Below the pieces are notes generated by a model. It was not told where the DNA came from. It worked only from the letters and a program-made list of their open reading frames with translations, and did not search any database. This document shows, in pieces, positions 11,574 through 51,149 of a stretch of DNA of 64,000 nt. The position numbers and the translations under genes were made by a program. Source of the stretch: Acidobacteriota bacterium (GTDB lineage: Bacteria; Acidobacteriota; Terriglobia; Acidiferrales; UBA7541); assembly GCA_003165465.1 (NCBI GenBank), contig PLUM01000083.1:20065-84064 (forward strand), written 5' to 3'. Positions within the stretch are counted from its first letter, which is position 1, and every line of letters begins with the position of its first letter.

Positions 11574-13654
11574 CGAGAACCCGGTTCACCCGGCAATTGC
11601 GAGCGCGCGGAAAACGACACCTCCGCGGCTTGCGCGCCTCCATGCACGGGCGAGGATTCGCCCGCCGGCGCCGTCGCGAGGACCATGACCGCTTGCCGGT
11701 TCGGCAGAAGAGCGAGAATCGTTCCGAAGACAACCACCGCGCCGCCTAGCCAAATCCATTTCACCAACGGATTCAGATACGCGTGAATCACGGGGAGATT
11801 GGTGTCCGGATTCGTGCCCGCATAGACCACGTAAAGGTCTTCGCGAAGCGTCGAGGCAATCGCCACCATGGTGCCGGATTCCTGATTCGACGGATAAAAT
11901 CGTCGCGTAGGATAGAGCATCATCACCGAGCGGCCGTTTTTTTCCACGTCAATCGTGGCGCGTTCGGCGCTGTAGTTGCGTTCCTGCGTGGAGTCGTAAT
12001 TCTGAAGGTGAAGATTGTACGGCCCAAGGTTCATCACCGAGCCGGCGGACATGTCCATCTGCTTATCCTGATTGAACGCCGTGCCGGAGATTCCGATGAA
12101 GACGAGCACCATTCCGAAGTGGACGACGTATCCGCCGTAACGCCGCGTATTTCGCATGGTGAGCTGCGAGACGGACGAAAACAGATTGGAGCCAGTGCGC
12201 GCGGAGATGACGCGCGCACCGCGATAAAACTCCGCGGCAATCGTGAGCGTCACGAACACGGAGAGCAGGAGGCACAAGGTCACGTAAAACTCCCGCAGCC
12301 CCAGCGCTACCCCGACGATCGCAACCACCACGCCGCCAATCAGCGGAAATCCGAAATTCTTGCGCAGGCTTTCCACCGAAGTTTTGCGCCAGGCGAGCAG
12401 CGGACCAACGCCCGTCAAAAACAGGAGAAACATCGCGATGGGAATATTCACGCGGTTAAAAAACGGGGGCCCGACGCTGATCTTCGACCCGCGCACAGCT
12501 TCCGAAAGCACCGGAAAGAGCGTCCCAGCCAGCACCGCCACGCACGCAACCAGCAGAATCAGGTTGTTGAACAGGAAGCTGGACTCGCGCGAAAGCATCG
12601 AGTCCAATTGATTGTCGCTGCGCAGGTAATCGCGATTCTTGATGTAGGCCGCGAGGCATACGATGACGATCGTCAACAGGAATCCCCAGAACCAGTGGCC
12701 AATGCTCGATTCCGCGAAGGCATGAACCGAATTGACCGCGCCGCTGCGCGTCAGCGAAGTGCCCAGAATGCACAGCATGAACGTCAGAAACACCAGCCAG
12801 ACATTCCACACACGCATCATTCCGCGCTTTTCCTGCATGATCACCGAATGCAGGAACGCCGTTCCCGTAAGCCACGGCATCAGAGACGCGTTCTCGACCG
12901 GATCCCAGCCCCAGTAGCCACCCCATCCGAGCACGGCATAGGCCCAGTGCGCGCCCAGCAAAATTCCAGCCGACTGGAAAGCCCAGGCAATCATCGTCCA
13001 GCGGCGCGTCAGGTGGATCCACTTCTCCCCGGGATACCGACCCAGGAGCGCAGCCAGCGCAAACGCAAACGGGATCGTGAAGCCCGTGTAGCCCGAATAC
13101 AGCGTCGGCGGATGGATGGCCATCTCCGGATACTGGAGGAGCGGGTTGAGGCCGCTGCCATCGGCGCGCGTCGCGAGATGCAGAATTCCTCCGGCGCCGG
13201 GGCCCGCAAACACATGATAGGGACTGGCGACAAAATTATTCAGCGTAAGGAAGAAAATTTGGACGCCGGCCAGGACGACTCCGACGTAGGGCATCAGCTC
13301 CGGATGCTTCCCGCGATACGCAAACAGCGCCGAAAACACGTAGATCGAAAGCAGGAAGCTCCAGAAAAGCAGCGAGCCTTCCTGGCCCGACCATAGCGCG
13401 GAAAATTTGTAATACGGAGCGAGAGAGCGGTTACTGTGCGCCGCGACATACGTGAGCGAAAAATTGTCGGTGAAAAACAGGTAGACGAGAGTGGCGGTCC
13501 CAATCCAGATGAGAACGCATACCGCGAATCCCGCGTTCCGCGCCGATTTGATCAGCAGCGGACGCCGTGTGATGATCGCGGCTATGCCACCGAAAATCGC
13601 GTAGACCGCGAAGGCAAACGCCAACAATAACGCGTAGGAACCGAACAGATCCAC
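11552..13654 (-). CDS. ccmF: Heme lyase CcmF
   Basis: 700 aa polytopic; WGGYWGWDPVENASLMPWLTGTAFLHS. Confidence 0.95.
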   Translation of the reverse strand: MDLFGSYALLLAFAFAVYAIFGGIAAIITRRPLLIKSARNAGFAVCVLIWIGTATLVYLFFTDNFSLTYVAAHSNRSLAPYYKFSALWSGQEGSLLFWSFLLSIYVFSALFAYRGKHPELMPYVGVVLAGVQIFFLTLNNFVASPYHVFAGPGAGGILHLATRADGSGLNPLLQYPEMAIHPPTLYSGYTGFTIPFAFALAALLGRYPGEKWIHLTRRWTMIAWAFQSAGILLGAHWAYAVLGWGGYWGWDPVENASLMPWLTGTAFLHSVIMQEKRGMMRVWNVWLVFLTFMLCILGTSLTRSGAVNSVHAFAESSIGHWFWGFLLTIVIVCLAAYIKNRDYLRSDNQLDSMLSRESSFLFNNLILLVACVAVLAGTLFPVLSEAVRGSKISVGPPFFNRVNIPIAMFLLFLTGVGPLLAWRKTSVESLRKNFGFPLIGGVVVAIVGVALGLREFYVTLCLLLSVFVTLTIAAEFYRGARVISARTGSNLFSSVSQLTMRNTRRYGGYVVHFGMVLVFIGISGTAFNQDKQMDMSAGSVMNLGPYNLHLQNYDSTQERNYSAERATIDVEKNGRSVMMLYPTRRFYPSNQESGTMVAIASTLREDLYVVYAGTNPDTNLPVIHAYLNPLVKWIWLGGAVVVFGTILALLPNRQAVMVLATAPAGESSPVHGGAQAAEVSFSARSQLPGEPGSRWSDREK

Positions 13655-36585: not shown

Positions 36586-36685
36586 CCCCACGGGCCAGGA
36601 ACGCAGAGCGGATTTTCGCCAAATAGCCGCGACGGCTGAAAGCTGGAAAGTTAACTAGCGGATGCTCAATGGTTTGGAGAAAAGA

Positions 36686-36730
36686 TGGAGCCGAGGCCCG
36701 GACTTGAACCGGGGACCTGTCGATTACGAA
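36686..36730. repeat. attL: 45-bp direct repeat = duplicated 3' end of tRNA-Thr
   Basis: tggagccgaggcccggacttgaaccggggacctgtcgattacgaa, identical to 50037..50081. Confidence 0.93.
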
Positions 36731-36852
36731 GCGTGGGAGAAGCTTCTACTGCCATTTGTTAAATTGTGCGATTCTCTGCTATTCATGCGGCTTCCAGCAT
36801 GGTCGTAAGGCTTGAGTGACTACTGCCAATTAATGCGAATTGTGATGTGGAC

Positions 36853-36873
36853 GTGCACCAATTCGCGTACCAA
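36853..36873. promoter_or_regulatory. Putative integrase arm-type site (left)
   Basis: gtgcaccaattcgcgtaccaa; matches 21-bp direct-repeat pairs at 44696 and 49970. Confidence 0.5.
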
Positions 36874-36907
36874 ATTTTCTAGGCTTGACGCTGGCGCCAT
36901 GAGCCTC

Positions 36908-37333
36908 TCATTCCCCTAGAAGCGCCTGCGCACTGCGAAGACGGCGCGTGAGATGGTCGATGTCCTCAGTAATGCGGCTCTCGGGGTGGACTCTGTCGTA
37001 TTCGATCTTGATTGTAGCTAGACGCTGATACAATCGAGTGTGACATCTGTCGCAATGGCCGGTGCTCGCATGGCTGACCGTTTTCTTTCCACATGCCCGG
37101 CAACCCCATTTCTCGAAATAAAGGCTCCACTTCCGCTGCTCGAACACATCCTGAATCCGGCGAGTCTCTTGGGCCGCTTCTTTCAATCGGAAGTCTGGCT
37201 CCAATTGACCGCCGTTTCGCGCGGTCATCATCTCTTCCAACTGTTCCCTAACGAAACCACGGAGCATTGCTTTCATGTCCGCAGGCGACGGTTTGCGCAC
37301 AATCTCTATGCTGACGTTCTTTTTCCGTGGCAT
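36908..37333 (-). CDS. Hypothetical zinc-ribbon-like protein
   Basis: 141 aa; CRACGKKTVSHASTGHCDRCHTR. Confidence 0.6.
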   Translation of the reverse strand: MPRKKNVSIEIVRKPSPADMKAMLRGFVREQLEEMMTARNGGQLEPDFRLKEAAQETRRIQDVFEQRKWSLYFEKWGCRACGKKTVSHASTGHCDRCHTRLYQRLATIKIEYDRVHPESRITEDIDHLTRRLRSAQALLGE

Positions 37334-37342
37334 GACAGCCTC

Positions 37343-38467
37343 CTATCCTCGTGGGTGACATTTCTTGTGAATGTCGATCAATTGTCCCGGCGTGACGTGC
37401 GTGTAGATCATCGTGTCTGAAACGGAGCTATGCCCTAGTAGTTCCTGGATGCCTCGCAGGTCCGCTCCGTCGGCTAGCAAGTGAGTCGAAAAGGCGTGCC
37501 GGAATGAGTGTGGGTGTATGCCCGCGATCCCGGCCCGCACAGCCGCCCGTTTCACGATGCGGAGCAGTTGGCGCGTGCTGATAGGCAGGTTATGTTTCGT
37601 GCGCGTGGTATTTGCGGAGCCGATTAGCGTCAGGAATTTGGACTGAGCCTCGTCACGCGACATTTTAGAGACGCTTCCAAGCCATTGCTTGTGCTGGATG
37701 CCCGGCCCGCCATCCTTGGGGTATTCGCGCCAGTATCCGTACCACCATCCGCCGGGTGTGCTCTTTGGTCTGACTTTCGAGACGGTAAACTTCTGCCCAA
37801 GGAAATCGTCTTGGAACAGAAAGCCTTCGCGCCGATCACCCAGGTAGGCGAGCAGGGCTTCCCGCGCCATGCGGCCGAAAAGCACGTCCCTTTCTTTTTT
37901 TCCCTTGCCGAGCACGCGAATCGTGCCAATCTCGCCATCTGAAAAATCAATGTCCTCGTACCGCATTCCCGCCACTTCGGCCACACGGCATCCGGTTGCA
38001 TAGAAGGTTTCGAGAATGGCGCGGTCGCGTGGTGATTTTGTTGCCTCGATGATCTTGCGGGCTTCTTTGACCGTGGGGAATCGCGGAAGATGCCTGTGCC
38101 GTATACGAGTCCTGATAAACCGGGCGACATTGGTACTCACTACGCCGCCGAGTTTCAGGAATCCAAAGAATGCGCGTAACCCGTAAAGTTTTTGTTCGAG
38201 GCTACTAGACCCGATGCCGCGCCCTTGAAGGGACGCGAAATACTCCCTTATGTCGATATGCTTAATTTCGGTAAGACTGCGGGAGCCGATGAACCGGCAA
38301 AAGTCGGCTATCAGGGGAGCGTATGATCTGCGGGTGTGTGACGAGTATTCCTGAATCTCAAGCCATTGTGAGAACTTCGCGGCCAAGCAGAGATTGTCCT
38401 TCGCGTAGGAACGGATGGGCTTGCTGTTTGGGAATCGTGCGGAATCGACTACACTTTGCAAAGCCAT
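37343..38467 (-). CDS. Tyrosine recombinase with inserted arm-like domain
   Basis: HSFRHAFSTHLLADGADLRGIQELLGHSSVSDTMIYTHV; ~67-aa insertion GGWWYGYWREYPKDGGPGIQHKQWLGSVSKMSRDEAQ in the catalytic domain. Confidence 0.88.
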   Translation of the reverse strand: MALQSVVDSARFPNSKPIRSYAKDNLCLAAKFSQWLEIQEYSSHTRRSYAPLIADFCRFIGSRSLTEIKHIDIREYFASLQGRGIGSSSLEQKLYGLRAFFGFLKLGGVVSTNVARFIRTRIRHRHLPRFPTVKEARKIIEATKSPRDRAILETFYATGCRVAEVAGMRYEDIDFSDGEIGTIRVLGKGKKERDVLFGRMAREALLAYLGDRREGFLFQDDFLGQKFTVSKVRPKSTPGGWWYGYWREYPKDGGPGIQHKQWLGSVSKMSRDEAQSKFLTLIGSANTTRTKHNLPISTRQLLRIVKRAAVRAGIAGIHPHSFRHAFSTHLLADGADLRGIQELLGHSSVSDTMIYTHVTPGQLIDIHKKCHPRG

Positions 38468-38533
38468 TTGACACCTCCGCGTGTCATTCGGTTAGGGGCG
38501 TGTCGGTGTTGGATGCACCGGCGCGTCCCGTTC

Positions 38534-38662
38534 TTACTTCTTTTTCAGATATGCCTCGATTGCTTTGCGGATCAACGCGCTAACAGGCGCTCCGGTCTTT
38601 TCAGAAATGACTTTGAGCTTTTTTACGTGATCGTCCTTGAGCCAGATGTTCGTGCGCTTCAT
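38534..38662 (-). CDS. Ribbon-helix-helix-like DNA-binding protein (42 aa)
   Basis: Below ORF-track cutoff; MKRTNIWLKDDHVKKLKVISEKTGAPVSALIRKAIEAYLKKK. Confidence 0.8.
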   Translation of the reverse strand: MKRTNIWLKDDHVKKLKVISEKTGAPVSALIRKAIEAYLKKK

Positions 38663-38739
38663 ATGCGCTCTTATACACCTATGCGCAGAACTGTGTCAAG
38701 GTCCCATCTATTGCGGTAGTGGTACAGGTTGAAATTTGA

Positions 38740-39186
38740 TTAGGCAATCTTGACGAGGGTGTCCGATTTCTGCTCCAGCTCTTGTTTTTGCTTTGTCCTG
38801 CCGTAAACGAAAACAACTGCCAAACTTGCGAGAGCGGTAATAATCGACGCAAGCCCAGCCGCACCCTTTCCTAATTGAATGAGGTAGACACCGCCTCCTA
38901 TCGCAGTCATGCAAATGATGAAACCGTAGATTGGGCCTCTCTTCGAGTTGTGACAGTTTGCAGTTACCACCGTTTTTTCTAGTTCCTGTCGGTGCGCGGC
39001 TTGCTTTTCGGCCATAGCAATAATTCGATCAGCCGCGCCAGGATGAGCTTCGTTATACTTCACTAAAATATCAGGATGAGGAAGCGGGCCTGCGTAGTGA
39101 ACCCCAGAAGCAGTTATTTGGAAAGTTCCAGCTTGTTGCAGGTTTTGTCGAGCCAACTGTCGGCGGAGCTTATCTTGCTTGCTCAA
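38740..39186 (-). CDS. DUF2335-like two-TM membrane protein
   Basis: ITASGVHYAGPLPHPDILVKYNEAHPGAADRIIAMAEKQAAHRQELE followed by two TM segments. Confidence 0.7.
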   Translation of the reverse strand: MSKQDKLRRQLARQNLQQAGTFQITASGVHYAGPLPHPDILVKYNEAHPGAADRIIAMAEKQAAHRQELEKTVVTANCHNSKRGPIYGFIICMTAIGGGVYLIQLGKGAAGLASIITALASLAVVFVYGRTKQKQELEQKSDTLVKIA

Positions 39187-39394
39187 TGCGAATATCCTGA
39201 GACAATTTCATGATTGCATCGCCTAGATCGTTGCCGACTATTGTCCAATCGCAAAGAGTCGCTCTAGAATCCGCCTCAGGTTCATTGCGGCTTCTATTAT
39301 AAACATCAAATGTGCCGTTGAAATCAAGCAGGCGCGCCACTCCGCTAGTAAAAGAGGGGTTGGCGAAAAGAAACGTAGCTACAGCGCGAGACAC
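39170..39394 (-). CDS. Small conserved-looking hypothetical protein
   Basis: 74 aa MSRAVATFLFANPSFTSGVARLLDFNGTFDVYNRSRNEPEADSRATLCDWTIVGNDLGDAI; overlaps start of the DUF2335-like gene. Confidence 0.6.
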   Translation of the reverse strand: MSRAVATFLFANPSFTSGVARLLDFNGTFDVYNRSRNEPEADSRATLCDWTIVGNDLGDAIMKLSQDIRIEQAR

Positions 39395-39424
39395 AAAGCC
39401 AGTTTACGCTTTATTATTGCAAAG

Positions 39425-39640
39425 TCAAGCCGCCATCTCGGTTCTCGCGTCCAATAGCAAAACGACCTCTTCGATGCTCCAAACATGGTCAGAGATTCCT
39501 GCTTCCATCGCGGGAGTGACGCGCAAGGTTTGGTGAATCCGGCAGAAATTGTAGTGCATATAATGGAGCGCAATCGCCCAGTAGTGATTATCGACCTTTT
39601 TTGAAAAACCAATGGAAGGTTTGGGACGCCATTTTCCGGC
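39425..39640 (-). pseudogene. IS1-like transposase C-terminal remnant
   Basis: Minus strand reads FSKKVDNHYWAIALHYMHYNFCRIHQTLRVTPAMEAGISDHVWSIEEVVLLLDARTEMAA*; no start or catalytic N-terminal part. Confidence 0.75.
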
Positions 39641-42600
39641 TTAGGGTGCAATTCCAATCTGCGCTCTTGTTTGCGGCGTCAAAGCATGGGCGCGGCCAAC
39701 CAACTTCTCGAATAGCATCTGTTTGATTTCCGGTTTCTCGATCATCTCCGCTTGTGCTGCTTGCCGGAACTTGGACACGATGTCTCGCACGATTAAGGAT
39801 TTTCCGCCATCGGGGCCATCGGTCTGACGCTGATATTCCGGCGTTTTGATTAGCTCGGCAAGCGTGTCCTTCATTCCTTTTCCGCCAATCTTCAAATCGT
39901 TCCCAGCCAAGCCAACGTAAGTGGCGTACTGGAACGGTGTCAGCGGCACACCTTCGGCAGCGCGTTCCGGCTGCATTCTCACGTCAGGCGGCGCGGAGCC
40001 GAAGAGAGTTTTTGCTGGCATGGTGAGCCTATCGGCAATCTGCGCACGCACAAGTTCCTTTGCCACGGGATCGTTTTGACTGTTGGTGTAGACCGGAGAA
40101 AGAATATCCGGCCCCAGTCCCGGTGTAACCTGTATCGGTTCGCCGAAGATGTTCTGCTGTGGCGGAAGGGTCTTGCTCCATCCCGGCGTCGAGGCTTTGA
40201 TGGCGTCAATCGTGCTGTTCACTGCTCTGAGAATTGGGTCTTGTTCTCGATTGATCGTGCGCACAACCGAAGGCACAACTGTCCTGGCGTAGCCTTCCAT
40301 CAAGGATTGCATTTTCTTGTCAGGCTGCTGAAGTGCATCCAGCCAATTGGAAATTCCCTGGGTGTAGGTCTTGCTCATCATGTTATGACCGAGAGCAAGA
40401 ACAATGGCGTTTGCTGCGGTGTATTGATCTTCCTCGGGGATGTGAGAATTGATTTCCATGTAGTCGGCAATAGCTCCGAGCATCGCGCCAAACGGTTCCA
40501 CGCGATTGTAGGAATAGGCCGTTCCGTTCACGATGAAACTATACGGCGGGCGACCGCTGGCAGTATTCATGTCCCGCAATACTTTGTCCTTCGGCCCGCC
40601 GCCAGTCATGGAAAACTTCGCATCGGGTGCAAGTCCCTTTTCGTACACGGTAGCGATGGCAGCGGCAGTCAGCGCGCCGCTGGTTACTCTCGCAAGCGCC
40701 AGATCGCGCTGCGCTCCGCCAGCGTTAAAATCTTCCCAATTCTGCCGAGACAATAAACTGAGTCCGGGTACGCGCTGCCCGGCTTGCGTGGCGATGTTGG
40801 CGACCACGCGCAAGAATGGCTGAATGAATCGCCCCCCAGGAATCGCGTTGCGCAGTTTGTTGAACGCTTGCCCGACTGGACCTAACTCAGCTTGAAAAGT
40901 TTGTGTCAGCTTAAATTTGTCGGCAGCGTCCTTAATCGACGGTGGCGGATCGTTTTCAATCTCGGCAACTCTCGCGCTCAGATCGTCGCCTTCGAGTCCT
41001 TCCGCTTTTGCTTGCCTGAAAGCTTGCGCGTGCAATTCCATCGCGTAGTTGACGCCCTTAAAGAATGAGCTTTCAGCACTCAGCGCCCGCGTAGGAAGGT
41101 GGTAAATCAGATTGATCGCGTTTCCTACCGCTGTCCCATTCGAGAGATTCAGCTTTTCACGGCTGAGGTTCGTTTCACCAAACGTGCTTTCCGGGTCTTC
41201 ACCTGTCGTGATGATCTTGCCCGCTGCTCGCAGTCCATCGCTCCAGCCGTCCACGATGCCACGCGCCATTGCGAGAGGTTCGCCTTGCTCGACGCCTGGA
41301 CCTTCCGCGCCGAATAGTCTTTGTACACCGCGTATCTGCGCAGCAAGGGTGCGCTCTCCAATCGACCACGGAACCATTGCGGATTCGCTTGTGACCTTGG
41401 CAGCGTGAGTCTGAGGCCCGCTCAAAAGTCCCCACGTCATCCATGCTTCGTGAAGTAGATCCACGCCCTGACTTGCCGCGTTTGTTACTTTGCTCAGAAA
41501 GTCTATCCGCTGATCTTGTCTCGGCAGTGCTTGGAGCATCTTTGCCAGCGTGATCGGGTCTGTATCAACCGTTGAGCTGAAGCGCGAGGAAATGTCTGCG
41601 ATGTCGGACGGTGACAAGGCGGGGCGCGCCGCATCGGACATAATCTGATGCGATTCAAGCGTGCGAGCGGCCGTCCTGCTCGATTGTTCTCGCAGAGATT
41701 CTAATTGCCCGGCAAGAGATACCGCAGATTTTAGCTGCTGGGCTGCATCGGTATCCCCGGCGAGTGTCGCCTTTGCAAGATTATCGACGTGAGTAGCAGC
41801 CGAATCCCGAAGATCACGAAGCGCGAGCATCTCACCGGGACGCAGCGGGGCGCCTGGTTCAACCGCAAGCGCCTGCTGAATGGTCAGCGCGGAACTGGAC
41901 TCCGCTATTGTGGCAGCGTGAGACTGCGTAGCGCGGGACTTGGCAAGGCTCGATGCGTTCATCCTGTTTATGTCGGCAATGACGGCCTTGGTTGAATCTT
42001 CCGCGTCGATGTATTTGAGGTTGACGCGCAGTTCCGGCTGCGCTCCCGGCTCGCCTTCCGCTCCCGGCTCGGCAGGTGGTTTCGATTGTTGGCTGCGGTC
42101 GTAATTCCTCTGCATCGAATCTGGAAGCGCATCACGAAACGCTGCTTTCCCCGACTGGATTGCCATTGCCCCGAGCACCGTCATTTTCCCTAGTATTTCC
42201 CGAGACTTTGGACCTAGCCCGCCTTCATCCTTGAGCGCTTGCTGGTATTCCTTGTTTTTCTGCCACAGTGCCTCACCCATATTGAGGCCGAAATAAAGCG
42301 CCAGAAGTTTACTCCCGCCGTACTCTGCAATCTTTGGGATCGCGCCCAGCGCACCGGCACCCGCGAACATGGCAATATTCGGGACGCTCTGGAAAATGTC
42401 TGTAGCCTGCTTCTCCAGCCCCGATAGAAAACCTGGACCTACAATGTGTTCGGCAATGTTTTGCTGGTTCTCATCCGCTGGATGTACGGGAAGGCCAAAC
42501 AATCCCATCGGCCCCTTACCGGCAAAACGAGGATCAACCGTATCTCCCGCAAATGTCGAGGAAGGCAGGGCATCAAGCTCCTGCTGAGGTGTAGGTTCGG

Positions 42601-42733
42601 CCGGCTGGGGCGCGGGCGCTGGTCCTTGTTGCAATTTCGATTGCACCAGTGCGTCCACACTCGCGTTCTCGGACTCGGAGCGGCTCTGCAAGTACTGCTC
42701 GCCGATGTTCCCTTGTTGCGGCTCGTTTGCCAT
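39641..42733 (-). CDS. Large phage virion/ejection-like protein
   Basis: ~1030 aa; RBS GGAGG before ATG at 42733; resembles large internal virion-type proteins of podoviruses. Confidence 0.6.
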   Translation of the reverse strand: MANEPQQGNIGEQYLQSRSESENASVDALVQSKLQQGPAPAPQPAEPTPQQELDALPSSTFAGDTVDPRFAGKGPMGLFGLPVHPADENQQNIAEHIVGPGFLSGLEKQATDIFQSVPNIAMFAGAGALGAIPKIAEYGGSKLLALYFGLNMGEALWQKNKEYQQALKDEGGLGPKSREILGKMTVLGAMAIQSGKAAFRDALPDSMQRNYDRSQQSKPPAEPGAEGEPGAQPELRVNLKYIDAEDSTKAVIADINRMNASSLAKSRATQSHAATIAESSSALTIQQALAVEPGAPLRPGEMLALRDLRDSAATHVDNLAKATLAGDTDAAQQLKSAVSLAGQLESLREQSSRTAARTLESHQIMSDAARPALSPSDIADISSRFSSTVDTDPITLAKMLQALPRQDQRIDFLSKVTNAASQGVDLLHEAWMTWGLLSGPQTHAAKVTSESAMVPWSIGERTLAAQIRGVQRLFGAEGPGVEQGEPLAMARGIVDGWSDGLRAAGKIITTGEDPESTFGETNLSREKLNLSNGTAVGNAINLIYHLPTRALSAESSFFKGVNYAMELHAQAFRQAKAEGLEGDDLSARVAEIENDPPPSIKDAADKFKLTQTFQAELGPVGQAFNKLRNAIPGGRFIQPFLRVVANIATQAGQRVPGLSLLSRQNWEDFNAGGAQRDLALARVTSGALTAAAIATVYEKGLAPDAKFSMTGGGPKDKVLRDMNTASGRPPYSFIVNGTAYSYNRVEPFGAMLGAIADYMEINSHIPEEDQYTAANAIVLALGHNMMSKTYTQGISNWLDALQQPDKKMQSLMEGYARTVVPSVVRTINREQDPILRAVNSTIDAIKASTPGWSKTLPPQQNIFGEPIQVTPGLGPDILSPVYTNSQNDPVAKELVRAQIADRLTMPAKTLFGSAPPDVRMQPERAAEGVPLTPFQYATYVGLAGNDLKIGGKGMKDTLAELIKTPEYQRQTDGPDGGKSLIVRDIVSKFRQAAQAEMIEKPEIKQMLFEKLVGRAHALTPQTRAQIGIAP

Positions 42734-42734
42734 A

Positions 42735-44258
42735 TTACTTCCCTCCAATGCGAGTTAAGTCTTGTTCCGCCGTATCGAGTTCGGAAATCCTGTGAACGAG
42801 CTGGTTATATTCCGCGTCTGACATTCCTCTTGCGCGGGCCTGCTCGCGGGTTCCAATCTCCTGAATCGTCTTGAACGGCAGATTGCCGCGCAGGCGATCA
42901 ATCGCTTGCTTGGTTGCGAATAGGCCAATCGGCGCGTACTTCCCTCGAATCTCAGGCTCGATTTGCAGCGGGTCTTCCTTCCCGCCAAACGCAGCGGACC
43001 GTTTTGTCAATTCTTCCAGCGCCATCGCGTAAGCCTGCTTCGATGCGCCGGTGATCTGATCCAAGGGACTAGTTACGCCGAAATCCGCCCGGAGCATTTC
43101 CTGTGCTTGCGCGTGTCGAGCCTTAATCTTTCCGTCAGTCTCTTCCGCTTTCTTCAGATTCTCCGCAAGGCGCGTTTGCAGTTGCCAATAATCATCCCGC
43201 GCCAAAGCGCCGCCGCTGTAGTCTCGCGCCAATCGAGTCTGCAAGGCTGGTCCGGCAGAACTGGAATTAACCGCAATGGTGTAGTCGAGCAGTTTCCGGG
43301 GGTCGGAAGCATGGTCCGGGCCTTTTTCGATGTAGTTGCGAACCAGGTCGTACTCTGTGGCGTTCAAGTCAAGATTGCGGCGCTGGTTCTCCAGGTCGGG
43401 CAACGTCAATTGCCCATCGCGGGCGCGGGAAACCATTTCGCTAACCATGCTGTCCCGCACTTGCTTGAATGCCTTGTCTCGGTCCCGGTCATCTTTCTCC
43501 TGCTGCGCGAGTGATTGAGACTGCCAGGCTCTCTGCTCGCTGTCTGCTTGGTCCAGGAAATGTTGCTTGGTTAAAGGGCCTAAAGTTGTGTCGGCCTCAA
43601 TTTTTATTTGTGCTTGAAAGGGATTTTCCCGAATCTGTTTCACAAATCTCGCGCTGGTAATGTCAAGATGGAGACTATTTTCTTCCCTTTGCGCCCGCTC
43701 TGGATCCATCACGCCGTGAGCAACAGCACCGTCGAGATTGCCCTTAATCTGGGACAAGTATCCCGGAAGCTGTTCTTCGGTCCCATCAGCGGCCTGCCCC
43801 GCAAGAGCGTCATTCGATGTTGTAAGCTGCGCACCGTACGCTGCGATTGCTCTTTTATTCTGCTCATCCTGAGCATTAAGAATGTGGTGGTCGGAAAAAC
43901 CTGTAAAAGCACTATTAAAATGTAAACGAACCTGCGGGTCTTTGATGTCTTTGGCGAGTTTATCGTGTACGGCCTGCAATCCCTTCTGTACCGTTTCCGC
44001 GAGTTTGTTGGCCGGAACATTGGGGTCACTGAGCGTGTCCAGGTACAGCTGATTTGCAGCCACCGCGCCTTGTGAAACCTTCGCCATCGCTTGCTCGTTG
44101 CGTCGGAGTTCTGCCGTCTTGTCGAACATTTCCTGCCCGATGTCGGTGAGGGCTACCCCGGCACGCGCAATCGCTTCTCCGGGTGCCATAGCGCCGCCGA
44201 TGGATAGCTCGCCCGGCCTCAACGGTTGATTCTGTACGATCGCTTCGATTCGTGGCAT
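42735..44258 (-). CDS. Coiled-coil phage internal virion/ejection-like protein
   Basis: MPRIEAIVQNQPLRPGELSIGGAMAPGEAIARAGVALTDIGQEMFDKTAELRRNEQAMAKVSQ; tightly coupled to the downstream large gene. Confidence 0.55.
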   Translation of the reverse strand: MPRIEAIVQNQPLRPGELSIGGAMAPGEAIARAGVALTDIGQEMFDKTAELRRNEQAMAKVSQGAVAANQLYLDTLSDPNVPANKLAETVQKGLQAVHDKLAKDIKDPQVRLHFNSAFTGFSDHHILNAQDEQNKRAIAAYGAQLTTSNDALAGQAADGTEEQLPGYLSQIKGNLDGAVAHGVMDPERAQREENSLHLDITSARFVKQIRENPFQAQIKIEADTTLGPLTKQHFLDQADSEQRAWQSQSLAQQEKDDRDRDKAFKQVRDSMVSEMVSRARDGQLTLPDLENQRRNLDLNATEYDLVRNYIEKGPDHASDPRKLLDYTIAVNSSSAGPALQTRLARDYSGGALARDDYWQLQTRLAENLKKAEETDGKIKARHAQAQEMLRADFGVTSPLDQITGASKQAYAMALEELTKRSAAFGGKEDPLQIEPEIRGKYAPIGLFATKQAIDRLRGNLPFKTIQEIGTREQARARGMSDAEYNQLVHRISELDTAEQDLTRIGGK

Positions 44259-44259
44259 G

Positions 44260-44463
44260 TCAGTTGATACTCCAATCTTCGGGATCAAAAGGGACGGCAT
44301 CCGGGTCACTAGAACTTCCTCGCAAGTTCCGGGTCAGCAACGTAGAACCAGGAGCCTGCGCAGGCTCACCCATGTAGAGCGGCTTCGTAAACTTCTCGCG
44401 TAGCTTGGCCAGGGTCTTCCGGGCTTCTTCGATGGCCATCTTTGCTCTTTTTTCAGGCGACAT
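44260..44463 (-). CDS. Small hypothetical protein in phage-like module
   Basis: MSPEKRAKMAIEEARKTLAKLREKFTKPLYMGEPAQAPGSTLL; RBS GGAGGG. Confidence 0.6.
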   Translation of the reverse strand: MSPEKRAKMAIEEARKTLAKLREKFTKPLYMGEPAQAPGSTLLTRNLRGSSSDPDAVPFDPEDWSIN

Positions 44464-44695
44464 ACGTTTGCCCTCCGTTCTGGTTAGCATGAAACCTCCA
44501 AGCCTGGAACCTTAAAATTGGGTACCCGATCTGCGCGACTCCGGACGCCCATCGCGTCGGCTCCGTGTTTTGGTGTACGGGGGGTCGGCGAATCGAAAGC
44601 GAAGGCCCTACGATGCCGCTCCATCTCGCAGCAAGGCCCCTGGCAGACGCGCAGACGGCAGCCTCGTGTGATAACTCGGCCTCTTCCGATGATGC

Positions 44696-44716
44696 GTGCA
44701 CCAATTCGTGCACCAA
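44696..44716. promoter_or_regulatory. Putative integrase arm-type site (internal)
   Basis: gtgcaccaattcgtgcaccaa, in a ~300-bp non-coding gap. Confidence 0.5.
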
Positions 44717-44795
44717 TCGGCTGCACCCTGCCAGCAAGTGCTTATTGCATCGCACGATAGAGCCAGCGACCCCATGCTTGCGCAGCGTGTGTGAG

Positions 44796-45305
44796 CTATT
44801 CATCGACTTCCTCGGCCTCAATCGTGCGCATCTGCTGGCCGTCAGCCTCGCCCAGCACCATGACGTTGACGACAATGTGAGACGCAGGCTCGGAGTGCTT
44901 CGCTCCAGGCAATTCCCCGGCCCGTTCAAGAAGTTTGATCGCGCTGTCCGATGCACGCAGTCTGTGTTGCATGTCCACTTGTGACGAAATATCGTCACCC
45001 TTTACCACAAGTCTCATGCTGTCTAATCCTTCCGATATCACGCGCACAACCCTGTCCTGCGTTACACCGTGACGGAGTAGCGTGGTTCTCAAGACTGCCT
45101 GCGCCGTCCTGGTCGCCAATGATTGAGGCTCGCTTCTAGGCACAATGGCACCATCTGTGACGCTCGCCAGGGCGCTGCCTAGCAGATCGGTGACAAGCTT
45201 CCTCCCTTTGGCCCGATACTTGCGCATCCGGATGCACCCCATCTCGCGGTGATGCCGCCTTCTCGCAGCCAATATTCCCTCGTCCACGCATTTCTTCGGA
45301 GGCAT
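44796..45305 (-). CDS. Hypothetical protein; weak resemblance to small terminase-like proteins
   Basis: LLRHGVTQDRVVRVISEGLDSMRLVVKGDDISSQVDMQHRLRASDSAIKLLERAGELPG. Confidence 0.5.
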   Translation of the reverse strand: MPPKKCVDEGILAARRRHHREMGCIRMRKYRAKGRKLVTDLLGSALASVTDGAIVPRSEPQSLATRTAQAVLRTTLLRHGVTQDRVVRVISEGLDSMRLVVKGDDISSQVDMQHRLRASDSAIKLLERAGELPGAKHSEPASHIVVNVMVLGEADGQQMRTIEAEEVDE

Positions 45306-45312
45306 GCTGTCC

Positions 45313-45921
45313 TCACACGTCGAAGGATGTTTCGGCTTCCCGGGGATTGGAAGATTGGGCCGGTGAACCTACCCCCGCGATCCGTAGCATCCGCACGGCG
45401 GACTTGGGGGAGTTTTCCATCTTGGTCAAAGATGCTTCCAGCATGGTTAACCACTGGTCGATGTCCGAGGCTGCCGAAAGTACGCCAGACATTTCCTTTG
45501 TGATCGTGTCACTCCACCTGTCGCCGTATGGGGATTTCCTGACATCGGAGGGGACAAGCCGTGCAATCTTTCTGGGGATTTCTCCGAGTTGAGAGATCGC
45601 AACCGGGTAAAAGGAAAATATCGAGTTGACGAGTTTATCGACGCGCCCCACCAGGCCGTGAGGCACACCGGCGCGAATATGGGGTTGCCAGTCGAATCTA
45701 TAGAGTTTTTGCGCTGCCTTGAAACGGGGAGTTCGTGAAAGCTCTTTGAGCAATTCCAGGGCGGGGAATCCGCGTGCTTGCCAGTCCGCCGTGAGTTGCG
45801 CCTGAACCTCGGCCAGTTCCGGGTTGCTTTCTCTTTCTGCGGCCATCGCTGCTGATTGTGTTTCTATTCGGTTTACCATTCCCGTCAAGGCATTGATCGG
45901 ACCGATTTGTTTCGCGCTCAT
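45313..45921 (-). CDS. Hypothetical protein
   Basis: 202 aa, same strand and tight spacing. Confidence 0.6.
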   Translation of the reverse strand: MSAKQIGPINALTGMVNRIETQSAAMAAERESNPELAEVQAQLTADWQARGFPALELLKELSRTPRFKAAQKLYRFDWQPHIRAGVPHGLVGRVDKLVNSIFSFYPVAISQLGEIPRKIARLVPSDVRKSPYGDRWSDTITKEMSGVLSAASDIDQWLTMLEASLTKMENSPKSAVRMLRIAGVGSPAQSSNPREAETSFDV

Positions 45922-45955
45922 TTTTCCTGTTCTCCCTTTTTGGATTTTATTTCCC

Positions 45956-46141
45956 TTACTTTTTGTAGGCCGCGTCTTCCCGCTTCAGCGATTCGTTCTT
46001 TTCCCGCAGCGATCTTTCGCCCGCAGCTCGCTGACGTGACGCCGCTGCGTCCCGCATTTTCACGCCCGGGTCCGCGATGTTCAGTTTTTCTCCGTCCACG
46101 AGGGCTCGTCCCTTAGAAATTCCACCGCTTAATTGCGTCAT
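45956..46141 (-). CDS. Small basic/charged hypothetical protein (61 aa)
   Basis: MTQLSGGISKGRALVDGEKLNIADPGVKMRDAAASRQRAAGERSLREKNESLKREDAAYKK, AAGGAG upstream. Confidence 0.6.
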   Translation of the reverse strand: MTQLSGGISKGRALVDGEKLNIADPGVKMRDAAASRQRAAGERSLREKNESLKREDAAYKK

Positions 46142-46166
46142 TTTCGATTTCTCCTTTCGATTTTTC

Positions 46167-46484
46167 CTACTGAACCTTGCTACTTCCTGGCTCCCACTTC
46201 TGGAGCCATTCGAGCCAATCCACGCTGACCTTCGGCGGGTGAAGATCCCCACCGTCCCCGATGCCGTAGCACCCGGCACAGTCCGGCCGGCCGCACGGCG
46301 CAAGCCCTTTCCCACGGGCGCGCAGTACCTCTGCCAGTCCTTCGCGGCGCTGGCGCAGCTGGTCAAGCAAGCTGGATGCTAGAGGGTTGCCGGGAGGGAT
46401 TCGATAGCGAACGCGGTCCCAATCGAGGGTGAGGGTGCCCCCGCTCGATTCCAGGCGCGAAATGATCTGTAGTAGGTCGGTCAC
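46167..46484 (-). CDS. TubC-N/primase-associated-like small protein
   Basis: MTDLLQIISRLESSGGTLTLDWDRVRYRIPPGNPLASSLLDQLRQRREGLAEVLRARG; overlaps helicase stop. Confidence 0.55.
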   Translation of the reverse strand: MTDLLQIISRLESSGGTLTLDWDRVRYRIPPGNPLASSLLDQLRQRREGLAEVLRARGKGLAPCGRPDCAGCYGIGDGGDLHPPKVSVDWLEWLQKWEPGSSKVQ

Positions 46485-47638
46485 AGTAACCCCTCTTCTG
46501 GGGAGTTTCCGTTTCTGCCCACGGGGGCAAACACTGTGTTAGATGTTTGGGCAGAAACATTCTGAGGTAAAAAGTACTTGAATGGGTTGCCCCTTTTACC
46601 CTCGCCGATTGAGCACATCGAGCCTTTGGAGCAAAGCTCCCTGATTACCCGCTGGGCCGTACTACGCGATATTTCTGATCCCTCGATCAGGGCTTTTAGA
46701 TCAACGGATTCAGTGTCTGATCCGGGGGCAACGGATAGTAAATGCCGGGCAGCTTCCTCCGATTCAACGTCTGCCGATGTCCCTAGCGCAACGTAGCCCG
46801 CATCCGTCAGCTCGATGGTCATCTCATCCGGCGTTCCATCAAATCTACTTATGGCTTCGATAGTACGCAGTGTCTTGCGGTGTTTGCCTTCCGGCCTGCG
46901 GATCGAAAGCACAATATCCACCGCTCCCGAAAAGGCCGATGATCCCCGGCCAGACTCGCCCACGGCACCGCCTGATTTTCGTTCATGCCGCAAAGCCATA
47001 ACCCCGATCCCTTCACTTACTGCCATCTGTAAGGGCTGCATCGCTTTAAGCGCGTCACCGGAATTGTTTTCGGAATCGCCGGATATGCCGGCAAACTGCC
47101 CGAGTGTGTCGACGACAAGCAGCGATGCTCCAATCTTTTTGCAATGAAGGACGGCTTGCTCTACGACGAAGGACCATTCGAGGCCATATATATCCCGGAA
47201 GTACAGGCAGTGAAAGTCCGCGCAGGTGAGTAACCCGGCCCGCTCCAGCGCCAGACGCCAAGAGCTAGACGGTTGCTCTGTAAGGTAGACAACCGGAGTG
47301 CGCATGGTGGGGTAGCCCATAAAGGGATCACCATGCACCACTGCCCGGCAGAGATATGTCGCCCAGGTAGTCTTCCCGGCAAGCTTGACCTTGCCGCCCA
47401 CCTCCGTAAGGCCGCCCTTGACGACGTAAGGCTTGCAAATGTATTCAGTCTCGATAGGAGTCTCCGCGCCGATCTGTAACGCGGTTTTGAACGGCAAGCT
47501 GCGAAGAGAATCTTTCTGCCCAAACTTCTTACACAAGGGGTTGGGTTGGGCAGAAACAAAATCCTTTTCGGAGTGTGGGTCATAGGCCGTCCGCAGACTG
47601 CCATCATCCAGCATGTCTATGACTTTTGCGCCCCTCAT
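46481..47638 (-). CDS. RepA-like AAA ATPase / replicative helicase
   Basis: GGKVKLAGKTTWATYLCRAVVHGDPFMGYPT (Walker A), LLVVDTLGQFAG (Walker B). Confidence 0.8.
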   Translation of the reverse strand: MRGAKVIDMLDDGSLRTAYDPHSEKDFVSAQPNPLCKKFGQKDSLRSLPFKTALQIGAETPIETEYICKPYVVKGGLTEVGGKVKLAGKTTWATYLCRAVVHGDPFMGYPTMRTPVVYLTEQPSSSWRLALERAGLLTCADFHCLYFRDIYGLEWSFVVEQAVLHCKKIGASLLVVDTLGQFAGISGDSENNSGDALKAMQPLQMAVSEGIGVMALRHERKSGGAVGESGRGSSAFSGAVDIVLSIRRPEGKHRKTLRTIEAISRFDGTPDEMTIELTDAGYVALGTSADVESEEAARHLLSVAPGSDTESVDLKALIEGSEISRSTAQRVIRELCSKGSMCSIGEGKRGNPFKYFLPQNVSAQTSNTVFAPVGRNGNSPEEGLL

Positions 47639-48069
47639 TCGTTCTCCTCAATCATTGCGATTTGAACAATCTCCTGGCACTCAACGGCGCGGGCAAGACC
47701 TTCAGCGATCGCGGCATCCAGGTTTTTAGCGGAAGTTCGAATGATTACGGGCACCATCACGGCGCGTTCGGTCGGCGTTAGACGAGGCCAAAGATCGTCC
47801 AGCACCTTTCGCACGGATTTAAGTTCGGGACTTGCTGGTTTCCGTGGCGCGTCATGCTCAAATAGATCAGCCATACGCAAACCAACGGCAGCGCAAATGC
47901 TTTCGACGGTGCAACCGGACCAGCATCGGACCAACGTCCTGCCAGCCTCGCCCCGGGTGAGGGAGAGCGAAGTCGCGCTCTTGCCGCCATGAACCGGACA
48001 TTTCCCGCGCCACCGTTCCGGCCCGGCTGATCGTGCATGAAGGCGTTCGGCGATTTGATCGGCTCTCAT
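47635..48069 (-). CDS. CHC2 zinc-finger primase-like protein
   Basis: RWRGKCPVHGGKSATSLSLTRGEAGRTLVRCWSGCTVESICAAVGL. Confidence 0.8.
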   Translation of the reverse strand: MRADQIAERLHARSAGPERWRGKCPVHGGKSATSLSLTRGEAGRTLVRCWSGCTVESICAAVGLRMADLFEHDAPRKPASPELKSVRKVLDDLWPRLTPTERAVMVPVIIRTSAKNLDAAIAEGLARAVECQEIVQIAMIEENE

Positions 48070-48072
48070 TGT

Positions 48073-48267
48073 TTACGCGCTGCGCTCCACGCGAGCCGGA
48101 ACTTCGCTGTCATTAATCAGTTTCACAATGAAGGATTCGCGCAGGCGTACTGAACTGCCCAGCTTGATGTAAGGCCATTCGCGTTTCAGGATTTTCATTC
48201 TGACCGTAGCGACCTTGTATCCGGTGCGCTCTGCGGCCTCGTCAACCTTCAAAAGTCGTTCTGCCAT
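48073..48267 (-). CDS. AlpA/excisionase-family HTH protein
   Basis: MAERLLKVDEAAERTGYKVATVRMKILKREWPYIKLGSSVRLRESFI; RBS GGAGGG before ATG at 48267. Confidence 0.75.
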   Translation of the reverse strand: MAERLLKVDEAAERTGYKVATVRMKILKREWPYIKLGSSVRLRESFIVKLINDSEVPARVERSA

Positions 48268-48356
48268 TTTCACGCCCTCCAGTTTCTTTCTATTTATTAC
48301 TGCCACTTGCGAATTGTCGTTGACAGGCCGCAGCTTGTCGTGCTAAAAACGTAACC

Positions 48357-48968
48357 ATGAGTAAGTCATTGGCGCGTAGGTTACAGCGCAAACCTCGACA
48401 AGAGCCGCACTACTCCGGCGAATCGGCTGGTACTTTGCTTGCAGATTTGCTGAATACGATTCCGAAAAATGATCGCTACAGCGTGGAAGGTTCACAGGAG
48501 GAGTGGAAGCGAATTACAGTGAAGGATCAAATCGCAGATCGCAAAATCATTCGCCGATTGGTTCAAATCCTACAGGAAGAGGGTGCCGGACTGGATGCAT
48601 TTTTCAGTCGGGTTTGTTTCGTGCCTAGACCATCCGTAAGAACGCGCGAGATCGGCCAACGCCACAGGTTATGGGACTGGAAGGTTACCGCAAATGGCAG
48701 GCAGTTGCGCCCTGCCGTTCGCCACGCCATCCTATGTGCGCTTGATCTCGCCAATACCGGCCTCATTCATCGCCTGCGTAGATGCCGCCAATGCTCGTCA
48801 TGGTTCTACGCCAAGATTAAAAAACACTTCCACTGTTCCAACGCATGTCGTGATCGGCATTTCCGCACTACACCGGAAGGCAAAGAGAAGCGCCGACGTT
48901 ATATGCAAACGTACCGAAAGCAACCATCGCACAAAGCCATAAGAAAAACTAAGGAGGAAAAACGATGA
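48357..48968 (+). CDS. CGNR/zinc-finger-like hypothetical protein
   Basis: RLRRCRQCSSWFYAKIKKHFHCSNACRDRHFRTTPEGKEKRRRYMQTYR; overlaps integrase start. Confidence 0.65.
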   Translation: MSKSLARRLQRKPRQEPHYSGESAGTLLADLLNTIPKNDRYSVEGSQEEWKRITVKDQIADRKIIRRLVQILQEEGAGLDAFFSRVCFVPRPSVRTREIGQRHRLWDWKVTANGRQLRPAVRHAILCALDLANTGLIHRLRRCRQCSSWFYAKIKKHFHCSNACRDRHFRTTPEGKEKRRRYMQTYRKQPSHKAIRKTKEEKR

Positions 48969-50035
48969 TCTACCAACGAGGAAAAGCGAAAACGTACTGG
49001 TTGCGGTTTCGATTCGCGGGCCGGTTCGTCCACGAGTCAACCCACACGGCAAGCAAAACGATTGCCCGTGATGCTGAGAGGCAACGGAGGCGTGAGCTAG
49101 AGCTTTCTATCAATGGGCTAAAGGAGCGGCGCTCACTGCCCCCCACCTTGGAACGGGCAGCCGCAGCATGGCAGCAATCCCACGCCCACGAAGTACGGCC
49201 CAACACGCAGCGCATGGCCCGCTTCGCGCTCAATCGGGTTTTACCGGCATTTGGCTCGCGTCTGCTGTGTGACATCGACGCCGATGCTATCAGGGAATAC
49301 CAGAAGAAACGGCTTGCCGAGGGTGCTCAGGGGAGAACCATCAATATCGAGATCGGGGTGTTGCGGCAAGTCCTGAAGGCCAATGAGTGCTGGCAGCCAC
49401 TCGACGGAAAAGTAAAAACGCTCTACGAACGCAAGGATGTGGGCCGGGCGCTCACGCCAGAGGAAGAATACCGGCTGTTAGAAGCTGCTCACAAATCAGA
49501 CTCGGCCTGCTATACCGCCGTCGTTCTGGCACTCAATACCGGCATGAGGAAGAATGAAATTCGGACGTTGCGATGGGACCAGATAGAATTCGCGCAGCGC
49601 ACGCTCACAGTAGGCCACTCCAAAACGGCAGCGGGAACGGGCCGCCTGATTCCCCTGAACGCCACGGCCTTTGATGCCTTGGCACGATGGGCAGGCAGGT
49701 TCCCCGAGGCGAAGTCTGAGCAGCCCGTTTTCCCACTCGGATGGAGAACTGCGTGGCGTCATGCGCTCAAGCTTGCTGGCGTCCGCTGCCGGTTCCACGA
49801 TTTGCGCCATACCTGCATTACCAAACTTGCCGAAGGCCAGGCCGGCGAGCAAACCATGATGGCGATTGCCGGACACGTTTCCCGCCGAATGCTCGAACAC
49901 TATTCGCACATTCGCATGGACGCCAAGCGTACGGCCCTAGACAGCCTGACACCAGTTTTCCAGGTGGGTGTGCACCAAAACGTGCACCAAATCTCTGCCA
50001 GCGAAGCAGAGGCAGAATCTAAGTTATTGAATTGA
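48965..50035 (+). CDS. int: Tyrosine-type integrase
   Basis: FHDLRHTCITKLAEGQAGEQTMMAIAGHVSRRMLEHYSHI; stop codon 1 bp before attR. Confidence 0.93.
   Translation: MIYQRGKAKTYWLRFRFAGRFVHESTHTASKTIARDAERQRRRELELSINGLKERRSLPPTLERAAAAWQQSHAHEVRPNTQRMARFALNRVLPAFGSRLLCDIDADAIREYQKKRLAEGAQGRTINIEIGVLRQVLKANECWQPLDGKVKTLYERKDVGRALTPEEEYRLLEAAHKSDSACYTAVVLALNTGMRKNEIRTLRWDQIEFAQRTLTVGHSKTAAGTGRLIPLNATAFDALARWAGRFPEAKSEQPVFPLGWRTAWRHALKLAGVRCRFHDLRHTCITKLAEGQAGEQTMMAIAGHVSRRMLEHYSHIRMDAKRTALDSLTPVFQVGVHQNVHQISASEAEAESKLLN
49970..49990. promoter_or_regulatory. Putative integrase arm-type site (right), inside int coding sequence
   Basis: gtgcaccaaaacgtgcaccaa, encoding VHQNVHQ. Confidence 0.5.
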
Positions 50036-50036
50036 T

Positions 50037-50081
50037 TGGAGCCGAGGCCCGGACTTGAACCGGGGACCTGTCGATTACGAA
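50037..50081. repeat. attR: 45-bp direct repeat
   Basis: Identical to 36686..36730. Confidence 0.93.
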
Positions 50082-50112
50082 TCGACTGCTCTACCAACTG
50101 AGCTACCTCGGC
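50037..50112 (-). tRNA. tRNA-Thr (CGT), CCA encoded
   Basis: GCCGAGGTAGCTCAGTTGGTAGAGCAGTCGATTCGTAATCGACAGGTCCCCGGTTCAAGTCCGGGCCTCGGCTCCA folds as cloverleaf; anticodon loop TTCGTAA. Confidence 0.95.
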
Positions 50113-50150
50113 CCTGCGAGAATTACTCTAGCATCGCGTGGAAAATACTG

Positions 50151-51149
50151 TCAAACGCCGGCGCTCGAATGCGCGCGGGCGGCCGCCAAGGAAGCGGCGA
50201 TTTGCTTGCCGTGGAAGCGGCCATTTTCGATGAAAATTTCGCTGGTATGATTTCCGCCGATCACCACTCCTGCGACGAACATTCCCGGCACGTTGCTCTC
50301 GTGGGTTTGCGGATTCATCGCGGGCTTGTTGGTTTCGGGATCGAGCGCGATTCCCAGCGAGCTGAGGAATTCGAAGTCCGGATGGTATCCGATCAACGCA
50401 AACACCTGATCGGCGGGCAATGACTGTTCGCCCTCGCGACTCGCAACCACCACGCGGCCCGCTTCGATGCGCTTCACATCTGTTTCAAACATCGCGCGCA
50501 CCTGCCCGGCCTTGATGCGGTTCTCGATGTCCGGCCGAACCCAATACTTGATGTTCGAGCCGAGTTCCGCGCGCCGGTGAATCAGCGTGACATTCGCGCC
50601 GTTGCGGTAGAGATCGAGGGCCGCTTCGGCGGCCGAGTTTTTTCCGCCGATCACGACCACGTTCCGGCGCCAGAACGCGTGAGGCTCCGTGTAGTAGTGC
50701 GAAACGTGCGGCAAGTCCTCTCCCGGAATGTTGAGGCGATTCGGCAGGTCGTAGTAGCCGGTGGCGACCGCGATTTTCCTGGCCGCGAATTGCGCGGGAA
50801 TTCCCTGCCCGTCCCGCGTGTGCACGGTGAATTTTCCATCGGTGCCTTCGACGCGTTCCACGCGATGGCCCAGGCGCAGCTCCAGTTCGTAGTGCTCGGC
50901 GCACTTGCGATAATATTTGAGCGCCTCGCTGCGAGTCGGCTTCTCGGCGGAAATCGTCAGCGGCAGATCGCCGATTTCCAGAAGTTCCGGCGTCGTGAAA
51001 AACACCATGTTGACGGGATAGTGGTAGAGCGAATTGCAGAGGCATCCCTTATCGATCACCAGAGGGTTCATGCCAGCGCGCTTGGCTTCAATGGCGCAGG
51101 CTAGCCCGGTGGGCCCCGCTCCAATGCAAATCAGGTCGTATGTGCTCAT
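50151..51149 (-). CDS. ypdA: YpdA-like putative bacillithiol disulfide reductase
   Basis: YDLICIGAGPTGLACAIEAKRAGMNPLVIDKGCLCNSLYHYPVNMVFFTTPELLEIGDLP. Confidence 0.85.
   Translation of the reverse strand: MSTYDLICIGAGPTGLACAIEAKRAGMNPLVIDKGCLCNSLYHYPVNMVFFTTPELLEIGDLPLTISAEKPTRSEALKYYRKCAEHYELELRLGHRVERVEGTDGKFTVHTRDGQGIPAQFAARKIAVATGYYDLPNRLNIPGEDLPHVSHYYTEPHAFWRRNVVVIGGKNSAAEAALDLYRNGANVTLIHRRAELGSNIKYWVRPDIENRIKAGQVRAMFETDVKRIEAGRVVVASREGEQSLPADQVFALIGYHPDFEFLSSLGIALDPETNKPAMNPQTHESNVPGMFVAGVVIGGNHTSEIFIENGRFHGKQIAASLAAARAHSSAGV

Follow-up and report, generated by a model that had tools for sequence, protein, structure and literature searches.

The question raised by this locus is what kind of mobile element would carry phage DNA-ejection proteins without a recognisable phage particle to put them in. 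Our analysis concerned a 64,000-nucleotide stretch of the genome of a soil acidobacterium (Acidobacteriota; assembly GCA_003165465.1, contig PLUM01000083.1, positions 20,065 to 84,064; hereafter the window), in which a 13.35-kb element between positions 36686 and 50081 occupies a tRNA-Thr(CGT) gene. We consider this element to be, on balance, probably an integrated satellite of a short-tailed (T7-like) helper phage, which would hijack podovirus particles and load them with ejection proteins of its own.

The insertion site is defined by two features.

36686..36730, plus strand: attL, displaced copy of the tRNA-Thr 3′ end (45-bp core), from the exact repeat and the empty site of relatives
50037..50112, minus strand: tRNA-Thr(CGT) containing the attR core at 50037-50081, located by ARAGORN

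An earlier note on this DNA had placed a 45-bp repeat at 36686 and 50037, and exact copies were indeed found at 36686-36730 and 50037-50081. Their start-to-start spacing of 13,351 bp gives the size of the element. In shuffled sequence no such repeat is expected. The exact match is 45 bp long and extends further on neither side, and the 4.6-Mb assembly holds no further copy. The right copy had been described as the 3′ half of an intact tRNA-Thr, and ARAGORN places that gene, the sole tRNA of the window, on the minus strand as listed. The 356-amino-acid integrase was said to end 1 bp before the repeat; its open reading frame (ORF) ends at 50035.

Comparison with related genomes at this tRNA had been set beforehand as a test that could refute integration, and its result favours integration. 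In G001, of the same genus, the tRNA and both flanks are contiguous and free of the element: window positions 36650-36730 align with 12012-12092 and positions 50037-50240 with 12048-12251, the two alignments overlapping by exactly the 45-bp core. G002, also of the same genus, has the empty site as in G001, and G003 and G004 have the tRNA with no repeat or element nearby. The Terriglobia metagenome-assembled genome G005 (JAIQFB010000010) has a different element of 14.3 kb in the same tRNA, between two identical 45-bp cores. These sites bear out the integrative element in tRNA-Thr that the earlier note had proposed; that note had not recognised the podovirus ejection proteins in the cargo, which fit the more specific reading as a satellite. 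The core at the tRNA 3′ end, the adjoining integrase and the empty site in relatives are those of a tRNA-targeting tyrosine-recombinase element.

The comparison of composition proposed in the same note showed that the element differs from its flanks in guanine-cytosine (GC) content (0.551 vs 0.587 and 0.593) and in tetranucleotides. Its tetranucleotide distance from the rest is 0.216; sliding windows of equal length have a median of 0.114, and the element is the most deviant of them. The palindromic word GGCTGAAGCC has 13 copies in the flanks and none within the element. GC content, tetranucleotide bias and the absence of such recurrent flank words indicate that the segment is distinct from its surroundings. 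Two other palindromic words, CACAGGCTGAAGCC and CCGTGCCCCTAC, were also seen repeated outside the element and not inside it.

The genes that bear most directly on the question form one block.

39641..42748, minus strand: gp16-like ejection protein of the inner membrane, 1035 amino acids (internal virion protein D family)
42735..44309, minus strand: gp15-like ejection-tunnel protein, 524 amino acids, adjoining the gp16-like gene (structure-based call)
44260..44490, minus strand: 76-amino-acid ORF with no family, which opens the gp15-gp16 operon

The 1035-amino-acid protein matched the profile phrog_6651 (1.1e-22) and, by tblastn, 40 phage records, many of them named internal virion protein D, so that its predicted membership of the gp16 family is solid by both profile and tblastn. 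For the 524-amino-acid protein no sequence match was obtained in the family-profile scans or by tblastn against phage records. Its single-sequence AlphaFold model is all-helical, with a mean predicted local distance difference test score (pLDDT) of 67. In a Foldseek search of the PDB with this model, T7 gp15 core structures ranked 1, 2 and 9 and the cyanophage A4 ejectosome 11 and 15, at E values of 0.05 and weaker and template modelling (TM) scores below 0.2, none of them significant. Against BFVD, matches reached 6e-8 and were mostly to uncharacterised phage proteins. In T7-like phages gp15 directly precedes gp16, the same order as in the element. We therefore regard the 524-amino-acid neighbour as a putative gp15 partner of the gp16-like protein, the support for this being structural.

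Searches of the PDB by sequence with the two proteins gave nothing relevant, and pattern scans of IMG/VR and GTDB with gp16 or gp15 alone gave no close relatives. A gp16 profile scan of IMG/VR gave eight distant loci. Relatives of gp16 were also found in G036 and, beside DnaB on a cut contig, in G087, with no recognised capsid genes nearby in either of these incompletely delimited loci. A gp16 match in G408 looked like chance and was rejected.

The right part of the element carries integration and replication genes.

48965..50035, plus strand: tyrosine integrase, 356 amino acids, adjoining attR (Pfam Phage_integrase, 2.1e-24)
48357..48968, plus strand: 203-amino-acid zinc-finger-like protein, overlapping the integrase by ATGA
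48073..48306, minus strand: AlpA/excisionase-like helix-turn-helix protein (TIGR01764, 6.2e-7, above its cut-off)
47635..48069, minus strand: primase-type zinc-binding protein, 144 amino acids (phrog_6088, 2e-10; 62% identity in G005)
46481..47638, minus strand: AAA_25 replication helicase-like protein, 385 amino acids (Pfam, 4.6e-12; phrog_906 DNA polymerase/primase, 1e-11)
46167..46484, minus strand: small conserved protein encoded downstream of the helicase (59% identity in G005, 60% in G000:C91)
45313..45921, minus strand: 202-amino-acid ORF with no family match
44796..45305, minus strand: 169-amino-acid ORF, small-terminase-like candidate by eye (no family match)

For the 169-amino-acid protein tblastn against phage records gave no match, and its predicted structure was unusable (pLDDT 39.5). 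Promoter and terminator scans did no better than chance. A second locus of the window's own genome (G000), C91 (L099 20-4822), was seen to contain an integrase, a primase fused to a helicase and, again, the small helicase-associated protein, with no structural genes among the ORFs read.

The profile scans for families covered 17 ORFs of the element, none of which matched a portal, coat, tail or large terminase family. The T7-type portal (PF12236) is absent from G000 and 60 relatives, the same model detecting three T7-like phages as a control; the P22-type portal (PF16510) is absent from G000, with E. coli detected as a control. The element thus has integration and replication genes and no complete virion gene set, as satellites in general do, and lacks the recognised portal, major capsid, tail and large terminase of a complete Autographiviridae prophage.

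A paired 9-mer, GTGCACCAA-N3-GTGCACCAA, sits inside both ends of the element. The 9-mer occurs five times in the 64 kb, confined to three places.

36853..36873, plus strand: putative left integrase arm site, GTGCACCAA pair with the second half degenerate
44696..44716, plus strand: third GTGCACCAA pair, in the 305-bp gap (44491-44795) upstream of the gp15-gp16 operon
49970..49990, plus strand: putative right integrase arm site, GTGCACCAA pair within the 3′ end of the integrase gene

The middle pair has a 14-bp stretch, CGTGCACCAATTCG, in common with the left one. In G045 (L103 5850-13450) an element of about 7.5 kb lies in tRNA-Asn, with a primase-helicase and a relative of the 356-amino-acid integrase (41% identity), and its equivalent pair, GTACACCAA twice, occurs at its two ends only. 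The end pairs of the window element look like integrase arm sites, and the middle pair suggests a composite (fused) element, an old element end or an operator. Since arm-type repeats are present at both ends, together with an excisionase-family gene and identical cores, the element may still excise.

The occupant of the same tRNA in G005 (L050 1914-16271) shares with the window element the primase-type gene (62% identity), the AAA_25 helicase (29%) and the small helicase-associated protein (59%), while its integrase belongs to another lineage. It carries a scaffold gene (phrog_8865, 7.4e-33), a large terminase (Terminase_6N/6C), a 191-amino-acid ORF judged by eye to be small-terminase-like, and two large proteins of structural type that occupy the positions of ejection proteins; no portal or coat was recognised in it. 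PKD-domain and RusA-like genes were also seen there by eye. BLAST found no similarity between its large structural-type proteins and the gp15 and gp16 of the window, so the late modules of the two elements would be analogous rather than homologous. Complete phages with a G005-type terminase (IMG/VR contigs and the prophage of G102:C6, L204, whose terminase is 53-55% identical to that of G005) have the order terminase-portal-scaffold-coat. That of G005 is scaffold-large proteins-terminase, and because the orders differ its element is not a simple deletion of the complete-phage arrangement. On contig L108 a relative of the helicase is joined to a terminase, with no portal start in the remaining 0.6 kb; a scaffold scan of IMG/VR and a helicase scan gave no members beyond this contig. 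It may be, and we propose it tentatively, that Acidobacteriota have a whole family of podovirus satellites, which make their own ejection proteins (the G005 element scaffold and large terminase too) and steal coat, portal and tail.

Among known systems, the window element shares with phage-inducible chromosomal islands (PICIs) int, an AlpA-type regulator and a primase/replication module; for the gene by which PICIs redirect packaging (small terminase or capsid remodelling) its candidate is the 169-amino-acid ORF. A close case is EcCIMP1, a functional E. coli PICI with the helper Kapi1 (PMC11773190), which likewise has int, AlpA and primase/helicase and no recognised capsid or terminase genes, and whose genes downstream of the primase are somewhat similar to those of phage DNA-transfer proteins. 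It belongs to another host phylum and its mobilisation has been demonstrated, that of the window element being a prediction; the latter has an explicit full-length gp16-like gene with a gp15-like partner. The phage-inducible chromosomal minimalist islands (PICMIs) of Vibrionaceae (PMC10803314) also have int, alpA and prim and a gene (iolg) overlapping int by ATGA, but the window element has a tRNA-Thr site instead of fis, AAA_25 and phrog_6088 rather than a DUF3987/DUF5906 primase, and phage ejection genes. Capsid-forming PICIs (cfPICIs; cited in PMC11389934) resemble it in carrying part of the virion gene set and differ in making their own capsid, no coat or portal being recognised among the scanned ORFs here and the portal families being absent from the genome. 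In T7-like Autographiviridae such as ProddE and CRP-804, gp15 and gp16 are neighbours in the same order and gp16 is 22-28% identical to the window protein, but their other virion and replication genes were not recognised in the element. The Streptomyces satellites Mulch and Flayer (PMC10690885) have encapsidation-related genes as well but no replication genes, unlike the window element with its primase and helicase. In the open-access literature searched we found no paper linking satellites with an ejectosome or internal virion proteins, and no Acidobacteriota phage satellite. Ejection proteins of its own in an element lacking shell, portal, tail and a recognisable packaging motor are an uncommon combination, with one weak hint of it in this literature.

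Left of the ejection block lie four further genes.

39170..39394, minus strand: 74-amino-acid ORF that overlaps the DUF2335 gene (by eye, G018 has a similar one ahead of its own DUF2335)
38740..39186, minus strand: DUF2335 membrane protein (a homologue with 49% identity adjoins a related helicase gene in G018)
37343..38467, minus strand: second tyrosine recombinase (rec374), XerC/D-like, 374 amino acids (Pfam Phage_integrase, 2.9e-36)
36908..37333, minus strand: 141-amino-acid protein with zinc-ribbon-like cysteines, 10 bp after rec374 (weak Pfam matches, all under cut-off)

The earlier note was right about the presence of a 374-amino-acid tyrosine recombinase, but "just inside" attL was loose, as it lies about 0.6 kb in with the 141-amino-acid ORF between. 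Against the XerC model TIGR02224 it scored 2.5e-67, below the cut-off of that model. Its family match is interrupted at about residues 217 to 290, where extra residues separate the two matched stretches; these extra residues lie in the catalytic half and by eye look like an integrase DNA-binding domain. No close relative of rec374 was found on plasmids. In G018 (L207 13152-15270) a relative of the AAA helicase was observed beside a DUF2335 gene, which is preceded by a small ORF just as it is in the window element.

Under the satellite reading, the element would excise on infection by a helper or on its induction, and would replicate by means of its own primase and helicase. Its DNA would be packaged in helper heads, the coat, portal, tail and probably the large terminase coming from the helper, and the gp15/gp16 pair would be loaded into the same heads. 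The resulting particle would build a satellite-encoded channel and inject the satellite DNA into the next host. Several points weigh against this. The gp15 call comes from a single-sequence model of the stated quality, whose PDB matches all had low TM-scores and none reached E<=0.001, and a gp14-like outer-membrane pore was not identified in the element. No large terminase was recognised, and the small-terminase call was made by eye. The third repeat pair suggests that the ejection block may have been added secondarily, the loci in G036 and G087 have incomplete limits, and for the G000 assembly completeness is about 89% and contamination 6.9%.

The ejection genes could instead be useless leftovers of a rearranged or decaying prophage, a T7-like temperate phage that integrated at this site and whose head, tail and terminase genes have since gone, perhaps in a single deletion where the 305-bp gap now lies. 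The phage order of gp15 and gp16 speaks for such a loss, as does the position of the gap, since complete T7-like phages have their head and tail genes upstream, where it lies and where the third arm-like pair is located. We nevertheless consider it unlikely: long gp15 and gp16 frames would be expected to decay and are intact, the main genes are open and dense (89% of the element), neither about 350 genomes of the class nor 376 of the phylum yielded a complete prophage carrying this gp16, and the G005 element at the same site has a similar capsid-less set made of different proteins in a different order. Somewhat doubtful, too, is a composite origin, in which a small satellite-like element (about 44.6-50.0 kb) was joined to a left block (about 36.7-44.6 kb: recombinase, DUF2335, gp16 and gp15) when both had integrated in tandem at this tRNA and the DNA between them was deleted, the fused unit being functional or not. 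It would explain the three GTGCACCAA pairs, with CGTGCACCAATTCG common to the middle and left ones, the confinement of the pair to the two ends in the 7.5-kb G045 relative, and the two different recombinases; yet the gap yielded no remnant of a core, and the middle pair might instead serve the late operon as its operator. Such an origin is compatible with the satellite reading and overlaps with prophage decay as well.

Ejection proteins present without virion genes would also fit an anti-phage or exclusion island, whose gp15/gp16 proteins would be decoys that poison helper virions or keep DNA from entering, instead of serving its own transfer, and anti-phage functions are frequent in satellites (PMC11389934). 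This is quite improbable, as no known defence family was matched and full-length paired proteins exceed what a decoy needs. Least credible of all is an integrative mobilizable element that carries phage-derived cargo and spreads by conjugation; the tRNA insertion, integrase and excisionase fit it as well, but no relaxase or conjugation gene was matched among the ORFs scanned.

The satellites known so far act mainly by redirecting packaging, by changing capsid size or by forming capsids of their own. If the satellite reading is true, an ejection channel supplied by the satellite would make DNA entry a further target of satellite specialisation, and it might account for transfer among hosts whose envelopes differ. 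The element in G005, in the same tRNA, offers a natural pair for comparing which virion parts are kept by satellites. Should the broader proposal for Acidobacteriota podovirus satellites also hold, the satellite-specific parts of a helper particle would include the injection machine.

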